Below are positions 39,185 through 47,194 of a stretch of DNA of 64,000 nucleotides, one piece after another. The translations under genes and the position numbers were made by a program. The stretch spans positions 124,001-188,000 of the forward strand of contig NZ_JAPQNS010000012.1 of the NCBI RefSeq assembly GCF_028867935.1, given 5' to 3'. Below the pieces are notes generated by a model. It made no database searches, was not told the origin of the DNA, and was given only the letters and a program-made list of their open reading frames with translations. The DNA is from Flavobacterium sp. SUN052. Lineage in GTDB: Bacteria > Bacteroidota > Bacteroidia > Flavobacteriales > Flavobacteriaceae. Position 1 is the stretch's first letter; every line of letters starts with the position of its first letter.

Positions 39185-42100
39185 ATGAAACGCATTTCTT
39201 TTTTGCTGCTTATGGCCCTGCTGGCCACGTTTTCAGTGCATGCTCAGGTCGTGAAAATCTCCGATAACCCGGAGCAGTTTCTGGCCGACGTACAAAAACT
39301 GATGGCTACCGGTAGTCCCGTGTCTGTTCGGGCCGGAACCAACCTGCAGGCGTTATGGTCGGAGAACCGTTTGAGCCAGCCTCAGCGCGACCGACTAATG
39401 GCGCTAAGCCGCAAAATGAATGCGAAACGCTACCAACCCGTAGCTCACTTTGCTCCACTGTTTGAGACATTCTATAACGCAGCGTATTCACAGAAACCTT
39501 CGGCGCAACCTGTCAGCATGGATGATCTGTTGACGCTCGCCGAAAAACAGTTTGCCAATGGTGATGCCAAAACGTTTGGCCAGGTAATGACCGCAACCCG
39601 CCAGTTTCTGGATCGCCGACTGCTTTACACTGGAACGTACAACAAGCTCTACGCCGAAGGGGGCACGTTCTCGTTTCGCTACCTCGACCAGCCACAAGCT
39701 GGTTCTGGCGGAGATACACCTCCTGCCAACAGTACAGCTGCAAGCTCGACGGCAGCTGTAGCCACTTCGGGCAACTTCGACGGATGGGACGACCCTGTCC
39801 CCGGTGACTCCGCCAAACCGAAGCCGCTAGGCCGCATTTTTATCCCTCAAAAACGGCCCATTCCCGCTGTAGTGGGGCCAGTACTGACCATCAAAGACGT
39901 ATTTCTGACAATGGTTGCCAATGGCGATTCAGTTGTTATTCCAAATACGGGTGGTGATTTGATGCTGAACTCCGGCATCTTCGTGGGTAAAGGCGGCAAG
40001 TTCACGTGGGAAACGGTAGGTAGGCCAGACATTTTCGTCACGCTCGGCGACTATTCAATGAATGTGATGAACCCTCGCTTACAGGCCGACGATGTGACAC
40101 TTACGCACCCATCCTCTCCCAAGCCAGTAAAGGGTGTTTTTGAGTACATCAGTCGGAAAAAAGGAACCGCCCAAGCGGCTCAATTTCCCCGGTTTATGTC
40201 GTGGCAAAACGACGTGGCTTTACCTGATTTGGGGAAAGACGTGAAATATCAAGGCGGGTTTGCTCTTGCCGGGTCGCGCGTTGTGGGGGCATCGGCAAGT
40301 GGGCAACCAGCCGTTATCACGGTGATGGATAACGGTAAACCATCATTCCGGGTCAAGAGCAACCGGTTTGAGTTTGCCGATGTAACCACCAAAGGAACCG
40401 CGCCCGACTCTTCGTTCACGGGTGGTCTTTTGCCCGGTGAGTCGCTTGGGGGTACGAGCGGACGAACGGCCTCACTCATTACAGCCACAGCAGCTCAGTT
40501 TTCGGGGTACATCGACGCGGATTCAATTACGCACCCTTCCGTGCAGTTTCGGTATGACAAAAACGCCCGCGTTGCCTGGCTGAACCGGCAAGAACGGTCG
40601 TCGTATGCGCGGGTGCCCTTCACCGATACATACCACAAATTCTATATTCAGCCGGAGGTGATGCGCTGGGATGTGAGCCGCCGAAAAGTTGATTTTTATC
40701 AGGTCGGTGCTAAACGAGAAGTACCCGTCAGGCTCGAATCGTTCGATTATTTCATTCCTGAACGCTACTCCGACATCACCGTCGACTACGGGTTCCACCC
40801 GTTGCAGATTGCCGCCAACTACATCTCAAAGAATAAAACCCAGACGTTTCTAGCCGACGACTTGGCTCAGGCTGCCCGCCTGAACCCAACTACCCTCAGT
40901 GGAGCGCTGGACCGGATGGTTATTGAAGGCTATTTGGATAAGGATCCCAACACGGGCATGATGCGCCTGAGCCGCAAAGGAATCCTGTATGTGCTGGCCT
41001 ATAACAAACAGAAAGACTACGACAATTTTCAGATTCAGTCGCAGTTTGTGTCGAACGACAGCGTTAAAAACGCGACCATTAACTTGAATGATAAGTTCTT
41101 GCTGGTGCGTGGAGTACGCACGTTCACCATCAGCGACTCGCTAAAAATCTACGGTGTCCCAACAGACAAAGTCCTCAAAATTGGTAAAGGCCGGGCCTTC
41201 ACGTTGAATGGTCAACTAAAGTCGGGCAACTTCCGGTATTCGGGTCGCGACATGGCGTTCGATTACGATAAGTTTGCCATGAACCTCAACAAAATTGACT
41301 CGATCACCTTTACGCCCCAAAAACTGGCGGCTCAGGGCAAGACCGAAGAAGTAGGGGGCGACATTAAGTACGACAAGCCGGGAATGGTTTATTTCGGCGC
41401 ACCTGATAATAAGTCAGGTAAGGTAAAAGATAAAAAAACCACCCAGCGTCTGGTGATGCCTGAGGGGATGACGGTCTATTTTAACCAGCCGATGCGGGGA
41501 AATCTGGCTTACAATGACAAGGTATACTTCAAAATCCCGGCTATCGATAACGACAGTTTAGGTAAAGGCGACATCTCGTTCGTTGGGACATTTTACTCCG
41601 ACGGTATTTTTCCGCCTTTCAAAGCAGAACTGAAAACCATGCCCGACAATACGCTTGGGTTCGTTCACAAAGCACCGGCGGGTGGTTATCCTGTTTATGG
41701 CAGCAAACCCGGCACGCCCGGCGCGTCGAACGTGAAGTTTGCGGGTGAGCTGAGCATGGATAAAAGCGGCCTTCGTGCCGACGGGGTGCTGAACCACCTT
41801 ACAGCTAGCCTGACAACGGGTGGCATGTTATTTATGACCGATTCGCTGCTGGCATCGGGCAGCAAGGGCGAGATCAAGGAAGGCGTTTCGGGAAAACCTG
41901 GCCCTAAACAGGTGTATTTTCCGGCCGTCCAGGTGAACGATTACAGCCTGAAATGGTGGCCAAAAGCCGACAGCATGGTCATCATGACCCAGAAGGGCAA
42001 CTTCAATTTCTACAACGGCAGCACCAAACTCGAAGGCAATCTGGTGTTACGAACAAGCGGTCTGTTTGGTAATGGTACCCTTCGCCGGGCTGATTCAGAA

Positions 42101-44392
42101 GCTCTTTCAACCAGTATCAAATTCAACAAAGACGGCTTCCTGGCCGAAGATGCTCAGTTTAAAATTGAGTCGGCAGGGGCGCAGAAGGGCATTGCCAACA
42201 AGCCTATCTTGCTTGGTACGGGCCTCGACGTAGACTTTAATCAGGTGAAGGGCATTGTTGGCCTGGCCATCAACGCACCTAAGAACCAGGCAATCAGTGA
42301 TACTCTGAAAGCGATAATGGAATTCCCCTACGCAGCCTACAAAACAAGCATCAACAGAGCGCAGTGGAACATCAACGCCAAAACCATTGCAATGAAGGGC
42401 GATGTAAAAACATCCACCTTCACGGCAACGGGCGAAGAACAGGAAGGCCTGACTTTCAACGGTGCAGCTGCTTTGTATGACGTTGAGAAAATGGCGCTTA
42501 ACATTAGTGGTGTTCCCTTTGTGACATCAGCTGATGCCCACATTATTCCCGACAAGGGGCTGGTCTCAATCAAGCGTAACGGTGAAATGATGCCATTCAA
42601 GAATGCCCGACTCGAACTGGACACCGTGTCGTTACACCACAAACTCAAAAACGGCAATATTCAGGTGCTTTCGCGGACGCGCTTTGCGGGTGATGCCACA
42701 TACCAGTTTGCGACCGCAGCTGGCGATACGGCTAGTATCAAAATGGGTAGTTTCGAATTTAAAGAATCGAAAGTGGCACCGGCCTTGGCCTCAACTCAGG
42801 CAACCCCTGACCTGTCGACTCGCGCTCCCGCAAAAGGTCGGCGTAAGTCGGGGTCTCAGCAGTCAGAAACAACTTACTTCACGGTTGCGCGTGCCGAAAT
42901 CGACGAGAACGACAAGCTGCAATTAGCTCCTCGCATGATGTTTAAGGGCGATATTGTGATGCAGGCCCCTGAAAAAGACCTTGGTCTGGATGGTTTTATT
43001 AAACCGTCGCTCAAAAAACGGCCTGACCTGATTGGGGGCTGGATTCCATTCAAAGAAAAAGTAGTAGAGCGCATCGAGATTAAGGTTGATAAAAATCTAA
43101 AAAATGAAGGCGATCAACCACTCGTTGCGGGTATTCATTACCGGGGTGGTCAGGGTGGCTTGTATCCAACTTTCCTGTCCCCGAAAGAAGACCAACGCGA
43201 CGATGATATTTTTACGGTTACTGGTCTAATGCGTTACGATGAGAAGGACAAGGTGTTCCGCATTGTGCAGAAGGGTGCTGACGGGTTGGAAGACATCGAA
43301 AATGCGTTCACCTTCAACGACCCGAAAGGCAGCATGACGTATAAGGGGCCGCTTACCCTCATGAATACGGGCCAAAATCCGTACCTGCTTGCTTCCGGCT
43401 CGGCTAATATCAATATCGATAGCACCAAGTACCGCTTGAATACCCTGTTAGCATTCACCTTCCCGGTTCCAGAATTGATCACAGCCGAGATCGGCAAAAA
43501 GCTGGTGGAAGCTAACCTCGAAGAACAAAACGACGAACCTGCTGATGACGATCTAAACGCCCTATCTGACAAACTGGTGCCATTGATTGGTCAGAAAGAC
43601 GTGGACGCTTACCGCACGAAGGCCCAAAATCAGCACGTTTCGCTGGCACTTGCTTCGCCCAAACTAGCGGTTCCTATCGTCTTTTCTAACGTTGAACTGC
43701 GCTGGTCCGAAAAAGCCAATGCTTTTTACAGCATCGGCCCACTGGGTGTTTCGAATATGGGAGCTGCCGACATTAACGCACAGATGAACGGTTTTGTAGA
43801 GATCAGGAAAACTGCCAACGGCGATGAAGCGACGATCTACGTAGAATCGTCAGACGAAGTGTGGGCGTTTTATGAATTCAAATCGAGCGGAAACGGGGGC
43901 GGTCAATTAGCGATTACTACTTCGGATCAGGCAATCAACGACAAGTTGCTAGCCGGTTCTAAGAACTCGGGTAAATCGCCAGTTGAAATTATTGCTGCTA
44001 CACCCGACGAGAAAGAGCAGTTTGTATCGCTGTACCAAAGTCAATACAAGACACGAGTTCGTCCGGCACCAGCTCCCAAGCAAAGCACTATCGCTACGCC
44101 TAAAGCCACAACACCAGCGACCAAATCCGGTTCAACTGCTCCCGCTTCAACAACCCTGTCTGAAAAGGCTGTTGCTACCGACGCGGCTACACCAACCGAT
44201 AGTAAATCAACTCCGACTGACAAAGCAGGTGCTGTCCCTACAATCACTAAACCCGGTTCAACAACAGCGCCCGGCGTAGCGACGCCCGGCGTGAAAACCC
44301 CAGCCGACAAAGCCGTTGTGAAAAAAGAAGCCGTGACGCCAGCAGAGAAAGAGAAAAAGAAGGTGAAAGAAGAAGAGAAAGAAGGGTTTTAA
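39185..44392 (+). CDS. Giant exported beta-rich protein, unknown function
   Basis: A 1735-residue protein with a signal peptide (MKRISFLLLMALLATFSVHA). After an N-terminal helical region (to ~150) and a Ser/Thr/Ala linker, the rest is mostly predicted beta-strand. Successive blocks read like stacked jelly-roll or beta-taco units, with patterns such as LNGQLKSGNFRYSGRDMAF and FTATGEEQEGLTFNGAA. The last ~120 residues are a Thr/Pro/Ala/Lys-rich tail ending in KKVKEEEKEGF. It resembles periplasmic bridge or OstA-like proteins only in general look; no family is assigned. It starts 13 bases after prmA and is probably cotranscribed. Confidence 0.75.
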   Translation: MKRISFLLLMALLATFSVHAQVVKISDNPEQFLADVQKLMATGSPVSVRAGTNLQALWSENRLSQPQRDRLMALSRKMNAKRYQPVAHFAPLFETFYNAAYSQKPSAQPVSMDDLLTLAEKQFANGDAKTFGQVMTATRQFLDRRLLYTGTYNKLYAEGGTFSFRYLDQPQAGSGGDTPPANSTAASSTAAVATSGNFDGWDDPVPGDSAKPKPLGRIFIPQKRPIPAVVGPVLTIKDVFLTMVANGDSVVIPNTGGDLMLNSGIFVGKGGKFTWETVGRPDIFVTLGDYSMNVMNPRLQADDVTLTHPSSPKPVKGVFEYISRKKGTAQAAQFPRFMSWQNDVALPDLGKDVKYQGGFALAGSRVVGASASGQPAVITVMDNGKPSFRVKSNRFEFADVTTKGTAPDSSFTGGLLPGESLGGTSGRTASLITATAAQFSGYIDADSITHPSVQFRYDKNARVAWLNRQERSSYARVPFTDTYHKFYIQPEVMRWDVSRRKVDFYQVGAKREVPVRLESFDYFIPERYSDITVDYGFHPLQIAANYISKNKTQTFLADDLAQAARLNPTTLSGALDRMVIEGYLDKDPNTGMMRLSRKGILYVLAYNKQKDYDNFQIQSQFVSNDSVKNATINLNDKFLLVRGVRTFTISDSLKIYGVPTDKVLKIGKGRAFTLNGQLKSGNFRYSGRDMAFDYDKFAMNLNKIDSITFTPQKLAAQGKTEEVGGDIKYDKPGMVYFGAPDNKSGKVKDKKTTQRLVMPEGMTVYFNQPMRGNLAYNDKVYFKIPAIDNDSLGKGDISFVGTFYSDGIFPPFKAELKTMPDNTLGFVHKAPAGGYPVYGSKPGTPGASNVKFAGELSMDKSGLRADGVLNHLTASLTTGGMLFMTDSLLASGSKGEIKEGVSGKPGPKQVYFPAVQVNDYSLKWWPKADSMVIMTQKGNFNFYNGSTKLEGNLVLRTSGLFGNGTLRRADSEALSTSIKFNKDGFLAEDAQFKIESAGAQKGIANKPILLGTGLDVDFNQVKGIVGLAINAPKNQAISDTLKAIMEFPYAAYKTSINRAQWNINAKTIAMKGDVKTSTFTATGEEQEGLTFNGAAALYDVEKMALNISGVPFVTSADAHIIPDKGLVSIKRNGEMMPFKNARLELDTVSLHHKLKNGNIQVLSRTRFAGDATYQFATAAGDTASIKMGSFEFKESKVAPALASTQATPDLSTRAPAKGRRKSGSQQSETTYFTVARAEIDENDKLQLAPRMMFKGDIVMQAPEKDLGLDGFIKPSLKKRPDLIGGWIPFKEKVVERIEIKVDKNLKNEGDQPLVAGIHYRGGQGGLYPTFLSPKEDQRDDDIFTVTGLMRYDEKDKVFRIVQKGADGLEDIENAFTFNDPKGSMTYKGPLTLMNTGQNPYLLASGSANINIDSTKYRLNTLLAFTFPVPELITAEIGKKLVEANLEEQNDEPADDDLNALSDKLVPLIGQKDVDAYRTKAQNQHVSLALASPKLAVPIVFSNVELRWSEKANAFYSIGPLGVSNMGAADINAQMNGFVEIRKTANGDEATIYVESSDEVWAFYEFKSSGNGGGQLAITTSDQAINDKLLAGSKNSGKSPVEIIAATPDEKEQFVSLYQSQYKTRVRPAPAPKQSTIATPKATTPATKSGSTAPASTTLSEKAVATDAATPTDSKSTPTDKAGAVPTITKPGSTTAPGVATPGVKTPADKAVVKKEAVTPAEKEKKKVKEEEKEGF

Positions 44393-44409
44393 CGGGATGT
44401 ATAGGTGTA

Positions 44410-44431
44410 GAGACGCAAGATTTTGCGTCTC
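44410..44431. repeat. REP-like palindrome copy 1
   Basis: GAGACGCAA / TTGCGTCTC with a four-base loop (GATT), in the gap between the giant protein gene and the RAYT gene. Confidence 0.85.
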
Positions 44432-44434
44432 CTG

Positions 44435-44497
44435 TGCGTCAGCCATCAATTACCCCTATTTTCAACCTGATAATGATTATACCAAATGGCTGACGCA
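44435..44497. repeat. Inverted pair of TGCGTCAGCCAT arms between REP copies
   Basis: TGCGTCAGCCAT (44435-44446) is the exact reverse complement of ATGGCTGACGCA (44486-44497). It places REP copies 1 and 2 in inverted orientation, as in a REPIN doublet. Confidence 0.75.
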
Positions 44498-44500
44498 AAA

Positions 44501-44544
44501 AGAGACGCAAAATCTTGAAAAGAGACGCAAAATCTTGCGTCTCT
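44501..44544. repeat. REP-like palindrome copy 2 with an extra half copy
   Basis: A half copy AGAGACGCAAAATCTTG (44501-44517) is followed by a full palindrome AGAGACGCAA / TTGCGTCTCT (44521-44544, loop AATC), preceded by the TGACGCAA motif shared with the other copies. Confidence 0.85.
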
Positions 44545-44606
44545 ACGTAAACCGGATGGTTTTGTTTTTGCAATTTTTGTAGGTTGCCAGCAAAACCACC
44601 GTTTCC

Positions 44607-45146
44607 ATGACAGAAACCCATTATCGGGCTCAATACCGAATTGATTCGGCGCGGTTGGCCGAATACGATTATGGGTCAAATGGAATGTACTTTGTCACTA
44701 TCTGTACTCAAAATCGCGGACACCATTTTGGGGAAATTGCAGAAGAAAATAGCGACTGCACCTTGACCCCAACAAATATTGGTCAACGAGCCATTGACTG
44801 TTGGTTATCCATTCCAGCCCATTTTCCATTTGTTCTGCTTGACGAGTTTCAGGTTATGCCCAACCATGTCCACGGGATTCTGTGCATCAACAAACCGGAT
44901 TATGATGATTGGCAACCCAACACCTTCGGACCACAACGCCGAAATTTGGCATCAATCATACGTGGTTATAAGGTAGGCGTGACAACGTTTGCAGGGCGGC
45001 AGCAAATAGAATTTGGCTGGCAAGCCCGTTATCATGACCGGGTGGTGCGCAATGGGGATGAACTAGACCGTATTCGCCGATACATCATACAGAACCCCGC
45101 TAACTGGCCCAAAGATCAGGACAATGTAGCGGGGTTATATATGTGA
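44607..45146 (+). CDS. REP-associated tyrosine transposase (RAYT, IS200-like Y1 family)
   Basis: A 179-residue single-strand DNA transposase-like protein. YDYGSNGMYFVTICTQNR opens the HUH fold, and MPNHVHGIL supplies the metal-binding His-x-His (H87, H89). WQARYHDRVVR and RIRRYIIQNP at the C-terminus hold candidate nucleophile tyrosines Y142 and Y159. RAYTs are domesticated, usually single-copy relatives of IS200/IS605 that recognise and spread REP palindromes. Matching palindromes lie on both sides within 150 bases. It looks intact. Confidence 0.9.
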   Translation: MTETHYRAQYRIDSARLAEYDYGSNGMYFVTICTQNRGHHFGEIAEENSDCTLTPTNIGQRAIDCWLSIPAHFPFVLLDEFQVMPNHVHGILCINKPDYDDWQPNTFGPQRRNLASIIRGYKVGVTTFAGRQQIEFGWQARYHDRVVRNGDELDRIRRYIIQNPANWPKDQDNVAGLYM

Positions 45147-45173
45147 TTAGATCGCGTTGCTGACGCAAACGTA

Positions 45174-45195
45174 GAGACGCAAAATCTTGCGTCTC
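45174..45195. repeat. REP-like palindrome copy 3
   Basis: GAGACGCAA / TTGCGTCTC with loop AATC, 27 bases after the RAYT stop, preceded by TGACGCAA. Confidence 0.85.
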
Positions 45196-45240
45196 ACCGC
45201 CGGATGGCCGCATCGCCAGATGGTTTTAGGTGACGCAAGA

Positions 45241-45264
45241 AGAGACGCAAAATCTTGCGTCTCT
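45241..45264. repeat. REP-like palindrome copy 4
   Basis: AGAGACGCAA / TTGCGTCTCT with loop AATC, preceded by TGACGCAA. It lies 24 bases from the end of the protease gene and may also act as its transcript end. Confidence 0.85.
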
Positions 45265-45288
45265 ACACATACAATACCTTATCATGTC

Positions 45289-46995
45289 CTACTTCTTCAC
45301 CGCGCTCAGTGCTTCACCCCGCTCCAGTTGTCGAGCCCGGTCAAACAAAGTCAGGCTCTTGCGGAAGGTTTCATCAGAATCACTCATTACCCGGAAGAAC
45401 TCGTTGTTTTGACCACTCCGATTGTTGCGCTGATAAACATACCGGGCTACGTATGCCTTCAGTTGGGTTTGAAGGTATTTTTTCGAGCGGGCAAAATCAG
45501 CTTCGTTGTATTTAACGCCTTGTGCAGTGGCCTCTTTAACCAGTTGAGCCATCTGATCATCGCCAAAGTTCACCGATTTGTTGAACTCAGCAAACGGCAT
45601 CTTCTCCAGCGATTTCCGATTCTTGTTAGCGTATTCCAGGGCGTATTCCCGGATTATGTTCTTCCCGAACAACTGCACCAGATAATTGGTCTGCCAGGTT
45701 GTATCGCGGGGAATAAAATAGTCGGGAGTTATCCCGCCACCACCATACACGACGCGCCCCTGATCTGTTTTGAACTTCAGCTTGGGATCATTTTTGATTG
45801 AGTCGGCAATGAAATATTCACCGCGTTTTGAGCGGGCTTCCAATTCCTGCTCATAATCGCCTTCGCGACCGGGCACATAAGGCTTCTGAATACTGCGGCC
45901 ACTTGGCGTGTAGTACCGTGAAATGGTCAGGCGTAATTCAGACCCATCGGTCAACTGAACTGGCATTTGCACCAGACCCTTGCCAAACGATCTCCGACCA
46001 GCAATCAATGCCCGATCATGATCTTGTAAAGCCCCGGCCACGATCTCCGATGCGGATGCACTACCCTCGTCGATCATCACCACAATGGGTCCTTCCTCAA
46101 ACAGACCTGGAATTTTAGCAAACGTCTGCCGGTCGTAGCGCGTATCTTTTCCATTCGTATAAACCAGCATCTTATTACCCGAAATCAGCTCATCGACCAG
46201 GTTTGTAGCCCGATCCATGTATCCGCCGGGGTTGTTCCGCAAGTCGAGCATGAGTTGGGTCATGCCTTGTTGCTTCAAATGCCCAAGCGCAGTTTTGAAC
46301 TCATCATAGGTAGTCTCAGAGAACCGGTTGACTTTGATGTAGCCCGTTTTGTTATCAATCATATACGATGCATCTACCGAATACGTCGGAATCCGGTCAC
46401 GCATTACAGTCACCACTCTCGGTGCCTTATCGCCTTTGCTCAGAATCGTCAGCTTCACTTCAGTGCCTTTCTTGCCACGCAACGCTTGAAACACCGAGCC
46501 GTTATCTACTTTGCCACCAGTCAGGGGCGTTTCGTTTACTTTAATGATTTTATCACCACTCTGAATCCCTGCCGTTTCCGACGGTCCACCGGCCAGGGGT
46601 GTAACTACATAAACGGTGTCTTTATAAATATTGAATTCTACGCCGATGCCATCGAAGCCCCCTTCCAGTTGCGAACGGGCAGCCACTGCATCGTTAGGAT
46701 TCATATAGGCAGTGTGTGGGTCAAGCTTCTCCAGCATCTTGGAGATCGAATAATCAACCAGATCGTCTGTATTTACAGTGTCAACGTAGTTATTTTCAAT
46801 CAGTTGCAAAATTTCCTTGTATTTGGTATAACCGCGGCCGATATTATTTACGCTTTTGGTACCTCCAAAAAAAGTAGCCCCTATCAGCATTCCTCCTGCC
46901 AGTGTAACGCCGAGCAACATAGGCAGGCGTACCGTCGCTTTGTCATTTTGGATAGGCGGGTCCTGCCGCCGTCCAAAGCTGTTCTCCTCTCCCAT
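45289..46995 (-). CDS. C-terminal processing peptidase, S41 family
   Basis: A 568-residue periplasmic protease of the CtpA/Prc class, which trims or degrades proteins from the C-terminus. One membrane anchor (about residues 24-44), a PDZ domain (about 115-200, GVEFNIYKDTVYVVTPL and SGDKIIKVNE), and the S41 core with LDLRNNPGGYMDRA follow. The catalytic pair is Ser314 in DEGSASASEI and Lys339 in RSFGKG, 25 residues apart as expected. I chose ATG 46995 because residues upstream are outside the family. Its 3' end faces REP copy 4. Confidence 0.95.
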   Translation of the reverse strand: MGEENSFGRRQDPPIQNDKATVRLPMLLGVTLAGGMLIGATFFGGTKSVNNIGRGYTKYKEILQLIENNYVDTVNTDDLVDYSISKMLEKLDPHTAYMNPNDAVAARSQLEGGFDGIGVEFNIYKDTVYVVTPLAGGPSETAGIQSGDKIIKVNETPLTGGKVDNGSVFQALRGKKGTEVKLTILSKGDKAPRVVTVMRDRIPTYSVDASYMIDNKTGYIKVNRFSETTYDEFKTALGHLKQQGMTQLMLDLRNNPGGYMDRATNLVDELISGNKMLVYTNGKDTRYDRQTFAKIPGLFEEGPIVVMIDEGSASASEIVAGALQDHDRALIAGRRSFGKGLVQMPVQLTDGSELRLTISRYYTPSGRSIQKPYVPGREGDYEQELEARSKRGEYFIADSIKNDPKLKFKTDQGRVVYGGGGITPDYFIPRDTTWQTNYLVQLFGKNIIREYALEYANKNRKSLEKMPFAEFNKSVNFGDDQMAQLVKEATAQGVKYNEADFARSKKYLQTQLKAYVARYVYQRNNRSGQNNEFFRVMSDSDETFRKSLTLFDRARQLERGEALSAVKK

Positions 46996-47194
46996 TTTTC
47001 TATACAGTATTTGTGTTGGACCACCGAAGCGGTTATATCTATCGGCATAACGTATAGGCCATACTATAATGTTTGCCAAATTCGAGCGAAAACAGAAAAA
47101 TAATTGGTCATACAAATCAGAAGTTGCAAAACAATGATAATCAGTGCAGTTCTGGTGGCGCTGAATTGCAAGACAGCTTTATTTTTGGGGTATA

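Follow-up and report, generated by a model that had tools for sequence, protein, structure and literature searches.

RAYTs (REP-associated tyrosine transposases) are tamed transposases that have been retained over long times for reasons that are still unclear. The subject here is a RAYT gene and the repetitive extragenic palindromes (REPs) around it, found in a stretch of 64,000 nucleotides from Flavobacterium sp. SUN052 (contig NZ_JAPQNS010000012.1, positions 124,001 to 188,000; the whole stretch is termed the window, and positions are counted from its first letter). Among the closest described systems, E. coli TnpA-REP (subclass 2.2) binds and cuts single-stranded REPs, with the GTAG motif being crucial; the RAYT biochemistry reported there concerns groups 2 and 3 (PMC8266576). 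In Pseudomonas fluorescens, inverted REP doublets (REPINs) that can fold as one hairpin are the likely mobile unit (Bertels and Rainey, 2011; PMC3116915). Subclass 2.4 of TnpA-REP took in all 100 sequences of RAYT group 4, a class of Bertels et al. (2017), and is abundant in Cyanobacteria and Bacteroidetes; it is associated with double-foot REPs (GTAG and CTAC ends), and an in-frame REP within the gene itself is said to predominate, in the wording "can be found", which does not make it a requirement (Quentin et al., 2018; PMC6006769).

The window locus is very probably a REPtron, namely one RAYT plus two flanking cognate REPINs, a reading that covers its identity and the past dispersal of its repeats. 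It resembles the P. fluorescens REPINs in its foldable inverted doublets, and differs in host phylum and in number (430 doublets there vs. 11 here; PMC3116915); it resembles the bacterial interspersed mosaic elements (BIMEs) of E. coli in having inverted doublets built from two kinds of REP (PMC6006769). As a system it is already described, and the locus is a new and well-formed example of it; the modest additions are the doublet with two tails and the comparison between sisters (fixed RAYT, shifting repeats). A preliminary description of this DNA regarded the setting beyond gammaproteobacteria as notable; pairs of this type are already described for Bacteroidetes (PMC6006769), which makes the setting less novel than supposed. 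Among the matches listed in literature searches, there was no paper devoted to a RAYT/REP pair in Bacteroidetes, Cytophagales, Spirosoma, or Hymenobacter, and, of the titles retrieved with the letters of the palindrome, those listed (20 of 312) were on other subjects.

Anatomy of the locus

The RAYT gene is bracketed by four exact copies of the palindrome GAGACGCAA-N4-TTGCGTCTC (0.03 expected in shuffled windows) and one half copy, as first described, and the 12-base inverted pair reported upstream is likewise real. The copies form two inverted doublets that flank the gene, consistent with the earlier likening to REPINs:

44607..45146, + strand: RAYT (TnpA-REP) gene, 179 aa; HUH/Y1 open reading frame (ORF) flanked by two REPINs
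44407..44546, no strand: upstream REPIN, 140 bp; GTAG-palindrome ... palindrome-CTAC
45171..45266, no strand: downstream REPIN, 96 bp; GTAG-palindrome ... palindrome-CTAC
44410..44431, no strand: REP palindrome 1, exact copy
44522..44543, no strand: REP palindrome 2, exact copy
45174..45195, no strand: REP palindrome 3, exact copy
45242..45263, no strand: REP palindrome 4, exact copy
44502..44517, no strand: half copy of the palindrome within the upstream REPIN
44435..44446, + strand: type A inner tail (TGCGTCAGCCAT) on the left arm of the upstream REPIN; half of the 12-base inverted pair
44486..44497, + strand: type A inner tail (ATGGCTGACGCA) on the right arm of the upstream REPIN; half of the 12-base inverted pair
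45199..45207, + strand: type B inner tail (GCCGGATGG) in the left half of the downstream REPIN
45231..45238, + strand: type A inner tail (TGACGCAA) in the right half of the downstream REPIN, differing from the motif of tail A by one mismatch
39185..44392, + strand: upstream neighbour encoding a large protein of 1735 aa (context), alignable over its 3' part in genomes G597 and G728
45289..47115, - strand: downstream convergent neighbour, peptidase-like (context); orthologous in G597 and G728

Judged from its sequence, the downstream neighbour is putatively a carboxy-terminal-processing-protease-like protein.

The preliminary description placed TGACGCAA before three of the full palindromes. This 8-mer does stand before a full copy at 44491, 45161, and 45231 (the copy at 45161 lying outside the GTAG foot); it is not enriched in the window (four seen vs. 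2.6 expected) and provides no constant prefix. As a conserved REP prefix, TGACGCAA is rejected: the constant neighbour of each palindrome, reading outward, is GTAG on one side, and TGACGCAA elsewhere is part of one of the two inner tails. The GTAG/CTAC feet had gone unmentioned, and the repeat unit is better defined as GTAG-palindrome-tail, with two units per REPIN in inverted orientation. As DNA, the + strand of the upstream REPIN folds into one long hairpin (z about -12 vs. shuffles), and the best fold of the downstream REPIN has two palindrome hairpins on the + strand and one long hairpin on the - strand (z about -6). The arms of the window palindrome pair without a bulge, whereas a bulge is needed for the activity of E. 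coli REPs (PMC8266576).

Dispersal of the palindrome in the window genome

The 8.1-Mb window genome (G000) contains 22 exact copies of the palindrome (none for a backward-read control), 33 copies at up to two mismatches, and 38 places at up to three mismatches (backward control, one); the five places with three mismatches were excluded from the doublet, core, and tail counts. The copies are scattered genome-wide rather than confined to this locus, alongside one strong RAYT match and a weak, distant one at C12:97385, so that the single-RAYT dispersal anticipated in the preliminary description is borne out. No set of near-identical full copies including the RAYT gene was seen in G000. Of the 33 copies, 22 pair up as 11 doublets, every one of which has its feet facing outward (left end GTA, right end TAC), and 11 are single, with a foot at both ends in three, at one end in seven, and at neither in one, which sits within a larger palindrome. 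Among the 22 doublet half-units, 12 have tail A (GCGTCAGC, up to two mismatches), seven tail B (CCGGATGG), and three neither, these motifs having been picked from the very copies scored (5% of random 30-mers class as A or B). The tails combine as A+B in six doublets, A+A in two, and B+B in none, with one half unclassed in three; the latter include the upstream REPIN of the window, the right half of which was left unclassed because the half copy separates its tail from the palindrome.

Several other features of G000 were seen alongside these repeats. The distant RAYT-like ORF at C12:97385 (L017, ORF 1156-1788; 211 aa by the first possible start) begins inside a 34-nt stem-loop. A second palindrome class, GTAGAGACCGGTCCGCCGGTCTCTAC, is present at C7:110882 and C36:129802, and two copies (in L061 and L063) resemble chimeras of these two palindrome classes. 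At L010 and L060, palindromes lie inside long open frames, with the putative peptides ETQNLASL and KTQNLASL.

Association between RAYT loci and palindrome class

A scan of named genomes yielded at least 80 RAYT loci. Among the matches listed, 44 of 80 named loci have at least two related palindromes inside the RAYT gene or no more than 1.2 kb away from it, vs. 2/50 equal stretches at locus starts. Of six near RAYTs with 49-51% identity to that of the window (three from Hymenobacter, one from Pontibacter, and two from Mucilaginibacter, among the matches listed), five have the palindrome class of the window at their locus and one has a shortened form of it. The palindrome class was counted genome-wide in 50 of the 80 named-locus genomes plus G000, with the class at each RAYT locus assigned by eye from a filter that displayed only palindromes with a related partner. 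The 12 genomes whose RAYT locus was assigned to the class have 28, 16, 29, 26, 10, 1, 15, 92, 1, 2, 1, and 11 copies; 36 of the other 38 have 0-3, the exceptions being Hymenobacter armeniacus (48), which is the genome with the shortened form at its RAYT locus, and a Kuenenia metagenome-assembled genome (MAG) (10). High copy numbers are found mainly in genomes with the class at their RAYT locus, as would be expected of the pairing proposed initially (Mann-Whitney p 2.3e-6, RAYT-locus copies included and shared ancestry ignored). The converse test, made for the GTTGC class, gives p 4.6e-5 under the same two provisos; Westiellopsis, which is outside the GTTGC class yet has 18 GTTGC copies, goes against it.

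Two further comparison sets are of doubtful kinship to the window genome. The label of the 'genus' set fits that genome badly: its members have 1.7-6.5 Mb, with 29 RAYT loci at 31-43% GC, vs. 8.1 Mb and 49% GC. The exact class is found in 7/150 genomes of this set; the six besides G000 have one copy each, with a RAYT match in four and none in two. It is found in 8/299 genomes of the 'family' set, with 1-5 copies in the seven besides G000, the RAYTs of which were not searched. Equal abundance of the palindrome in genomes that lack this RAYT, which the preliminary description had held to be damaging to its proposal, was not seen, albeit across genomes of uncertain relatedness and with one copy in each of two RAYT-negative genomes among the 150 of the 'genus' set. 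Double-foot REPs occur in 19/36 RAYT-positive vs. 16/114 RAYT-negative genomes of the 'genus' set (p 7e-6), a supportive outcome in a test that also counts RAYT-locus copies and in which the RAYT cut-off of 1e-10 misses distant RAYTs. In the Emticicia order, 306/390 genomes match the locus (best G597, 75% over nearly the whole query); kinship with the Cytophagales appears likelier for the window genome, as judged from a DNA query that was run on the Emticicia order and not on the 'genus' set. No 16S gene turned up in G000 in a search that gave a match in 9 of 14 control genomes.

Class membership of the RAYT

The window RAYT has the catalytic and guide residues H87 and H89 (HUH), W138/Q139, D144, R148, Y159, and N163. 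Its predicted Y1 HUH fold is closest to TnpA-REP: the best structural match of the protein model is E. coli TnpA-REP (4ER8), of which the HUH, Tyr, and guide-reading residues are kept, and the GTAG foot is a further likeness between the two systems. The protein is best placed, probably, in TnpA-REP subclass 2.4, equivalent to RAYT group 4, because of its HUH motif (NH[IFV]H in the subclass, matched by MPNHVHG), the WQ pair ahead of the Tyr helix (W138 Q139), the GTAG feet, its taxonomic company in the Bacteroidetes, and relatives with in-gene palindromes (subclass traits after PMC6006769). Both window REPINs fit the flanking REPs with 5' GT[AG]G of this subclass, and 3/11 single REPs of the window genome are double-footed. 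Two differences are that the window RAYT gene has no in-frame REP within it, and that its Tyr motif, YIIQNP, is one position off the YIxNNP of subclass 2.4, which is also the consensus of 44 relatives. The same motif is one position off the YI[LR][NQ]NP of subclass 2.7, which may be an alternative placing (compared by motif description only). In a protein tree of relatives found in this analysis, as distinct from the published subclass 2.4 set, the window RAYT is the sister of the three from Hymenobacter (support of 96 by a quick method).

Palindromes inside the RAYT gene are common among these relatives: they occur in 23/28 ORFs of the 'genus' loci (one, L020, being a broken copy; L043 yielded no row) and, among the matches listed, in 28/80 named loci. 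The in-gene REP is not put forward as a new discovery, as it is already in print (PMC6006769).

Comparison with sister genomes

In G597, both neighbour genes are kept and a 179-aa RAYT orthologue (79% identity) lies between two REPINs. The ratio of nonsynonymous to synonymous substitution (dN/dS) of the RAYT between the window and G597 comes to about 0.08 at a dS close to saturation (neighbour gene, 0.03); on this substitution pattern the RAYT is shown to be under purifying selection. The G597 sample comprised 1,918,355 of about 6.7 million bases, so its count of 11 palindromes at up to two mismatches is partial. The core that is common in the window genome (18/29 oriented copies) is found in 0/10 copies of the sample (Fisher p 6e-4), a figure that omits one double-foot copy without orientation. 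Four repeat sites of G000 could be aligned in the sample, and the repeat is absent from all four (the comparison started from 20 repeats located beyond the window, of which five were matched beside the repeat; L010, within an open frame and with a one-sided match, was not aligned).

G728 has no RAYT match at the corresponding site; in the position that the REPtron occupies in the window, immediately past the upstream neighbour gene, it has GTAGAGACCGGTCTCTAC (L222:1785-1802), possibly a scar or another REP class. G723 encodes a related RAYT with the palindrome core of the window at a different genome place. At the peptidase-gene loci of relatives, a GAGAC-N8..14-GTCTC palindrome occurs in 1/30, namely L191 of G597, where the RAYT is syntenic; a peptidase search in 18 genomes matched many paralogues and was uninformative. 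Near the peptidase gene of another relative (L202:1386, G826), there is a long palindrome containing GCTGACGCAT, which is tail-A-like.

Proposed mechanism and alternative explanations

The window RAYT probably mobilised its REPINs. Anatomy, genome dispersal, the association of RAYT locus with palindrome class, the predicted fold, purifying selection, and site differences between sister genomes are shown by the analysis, and alongside these we infer binding, cutting, a step at the replication fork, and movement. The REPIN would fold when its strand is single, most likely on the lagging-strand template at the replication fork; the RAYT would read the GTAG foot at the hairpin base, cut beside it with Y159 (a metal ion and H87/H89 assisting), and join the excised or copied unit at another place, itself remaining at one site, kept by selection, while the REPINs disperse. 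Either strand could be the substrate, because the palindrome arms are perfect and GTAG opens the doublet whichever strand is read. More tentatively, and with doubt prevailing, the mobile unit might be a two-ended REPIN, with a type A half (tail GCGTCAGC) and a type B half (tail CCGGATGG) that share the GTAG-palindrome and differ in role, like the left and right ends of an IS608-type element, the repeats of which are renewed by a fixed RAYT so that both change together under vertical descent; change of this kind is suggested because sisters with a same-site RAYT differ in the core and in the sites of dispersed copies.

Certain observations weigh against the REPtron reading. The copy number in the window genome is modest, and 4/12 class-carrying genomes have only 1-2 copies, perhaps those at the RAYT locus themselves. 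The RAYTs of L072 and L073, no more distant than the Hymenobacter ones (51 and 54% identity), are associated with another core, with 1 and 0 copies, and the Kuenenia MAG (L078), for all its 10 genome copies, has no palindrome seen at its RAYT. The window RAYT scores 45 bits against NCBIfam NF047646 (cut-off 80, which governs naming and is not a biological trait), and its Pfam score is likewise under the cut-off. Intergenic DNA is too diverged from G597 for a clean empty site, so absence there may reflect loss or divergence. Finally, a 2013 statement finds no obvious correlation between transposase genes and REP families (PMC3733652).

Could the palindromes instead be ordinary terminators or mRNA-end hairpins of the neighbours, with the RAYT among them by chance? 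Both window REPINs also fold strongly as RNA, the gene is between convergent neighbours, and a role of REPs in terminating transcription and stabilising mRNA has been hypothesised (PMC3733652). The identical sequence at scattered sites, with constant GTAG/CTAC feet and two tails, is hard to reconcile with that origin, as are the same palindrome class beside related RAYTs of other genera and the restriction of a GAGAC-N8..14-GTCTC palindrome, among 30 relative loci at the peptidase gene, to the genome with the syntenic RAYT; we consider this explanation improbable, and a terminator role may be a side effect of REPINs. That the locus is an autonomous IS200/IS605-like insertion sequence, moving as one unit with the flanking hairpins as its ends, is very improbable: the Y1 HUH fold is common to both enzymes and the related RAYT of G723, with the same palindrome, sits elsewhere, but IS608 and ISDra2 move their own gene, whereas the window genome has a single full gene copy and its repeats disperse without it, and the G597 orthologue is syntenic and under purifying selection.

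A third explanation overlaps with the REPtron reading, in that the REPINs spread in the past and the RAYT has meanwhile taken on a host function and stopped moving them. The few and varying copies and the conserved RAYT are consistent with this, and RAYTs have been likened more to housekeeping genes than to insertion sequence transposases (PMC6006769). Many copies are nevertheless exact, and sites and cores differ between sisters, which suggests activity since their split, though not activity today; we regard a RAYT that has ceased to move its repeats as unlikely, if worth keeping in view. Under the preferred REPtron reading, the locus is a probable group 4 pair with a short protein, perfect palindromes, few repeats, and a sister that has the gene at the same site with a shifted repeat, and it suits a direct swap test of co-evolution between RAYT and REP sequence.

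Repeat arrays at other RAYT loci

Three loci outside the window genome encode or adjoin repeat arrays. In L027 (G028:C37), ORF 1492-2577 encodes a 361-aa RAYT in the middle of which a repeated peptide contains ETRLIA(S/Y) twelve times in frame; exact 20-nt palindromes encode three of these copies, and the whole is an in-gene REP array. In L080 (a Bacteroides MAG), about 10 tandem units of 14 nt (some 29), half-REP-like, lie at 653-863, directly 3' of the RAYT gene. In L127, a tandem REP-like array 5' of the RAYT has four palindromes at an exact spacing of 43 nt.
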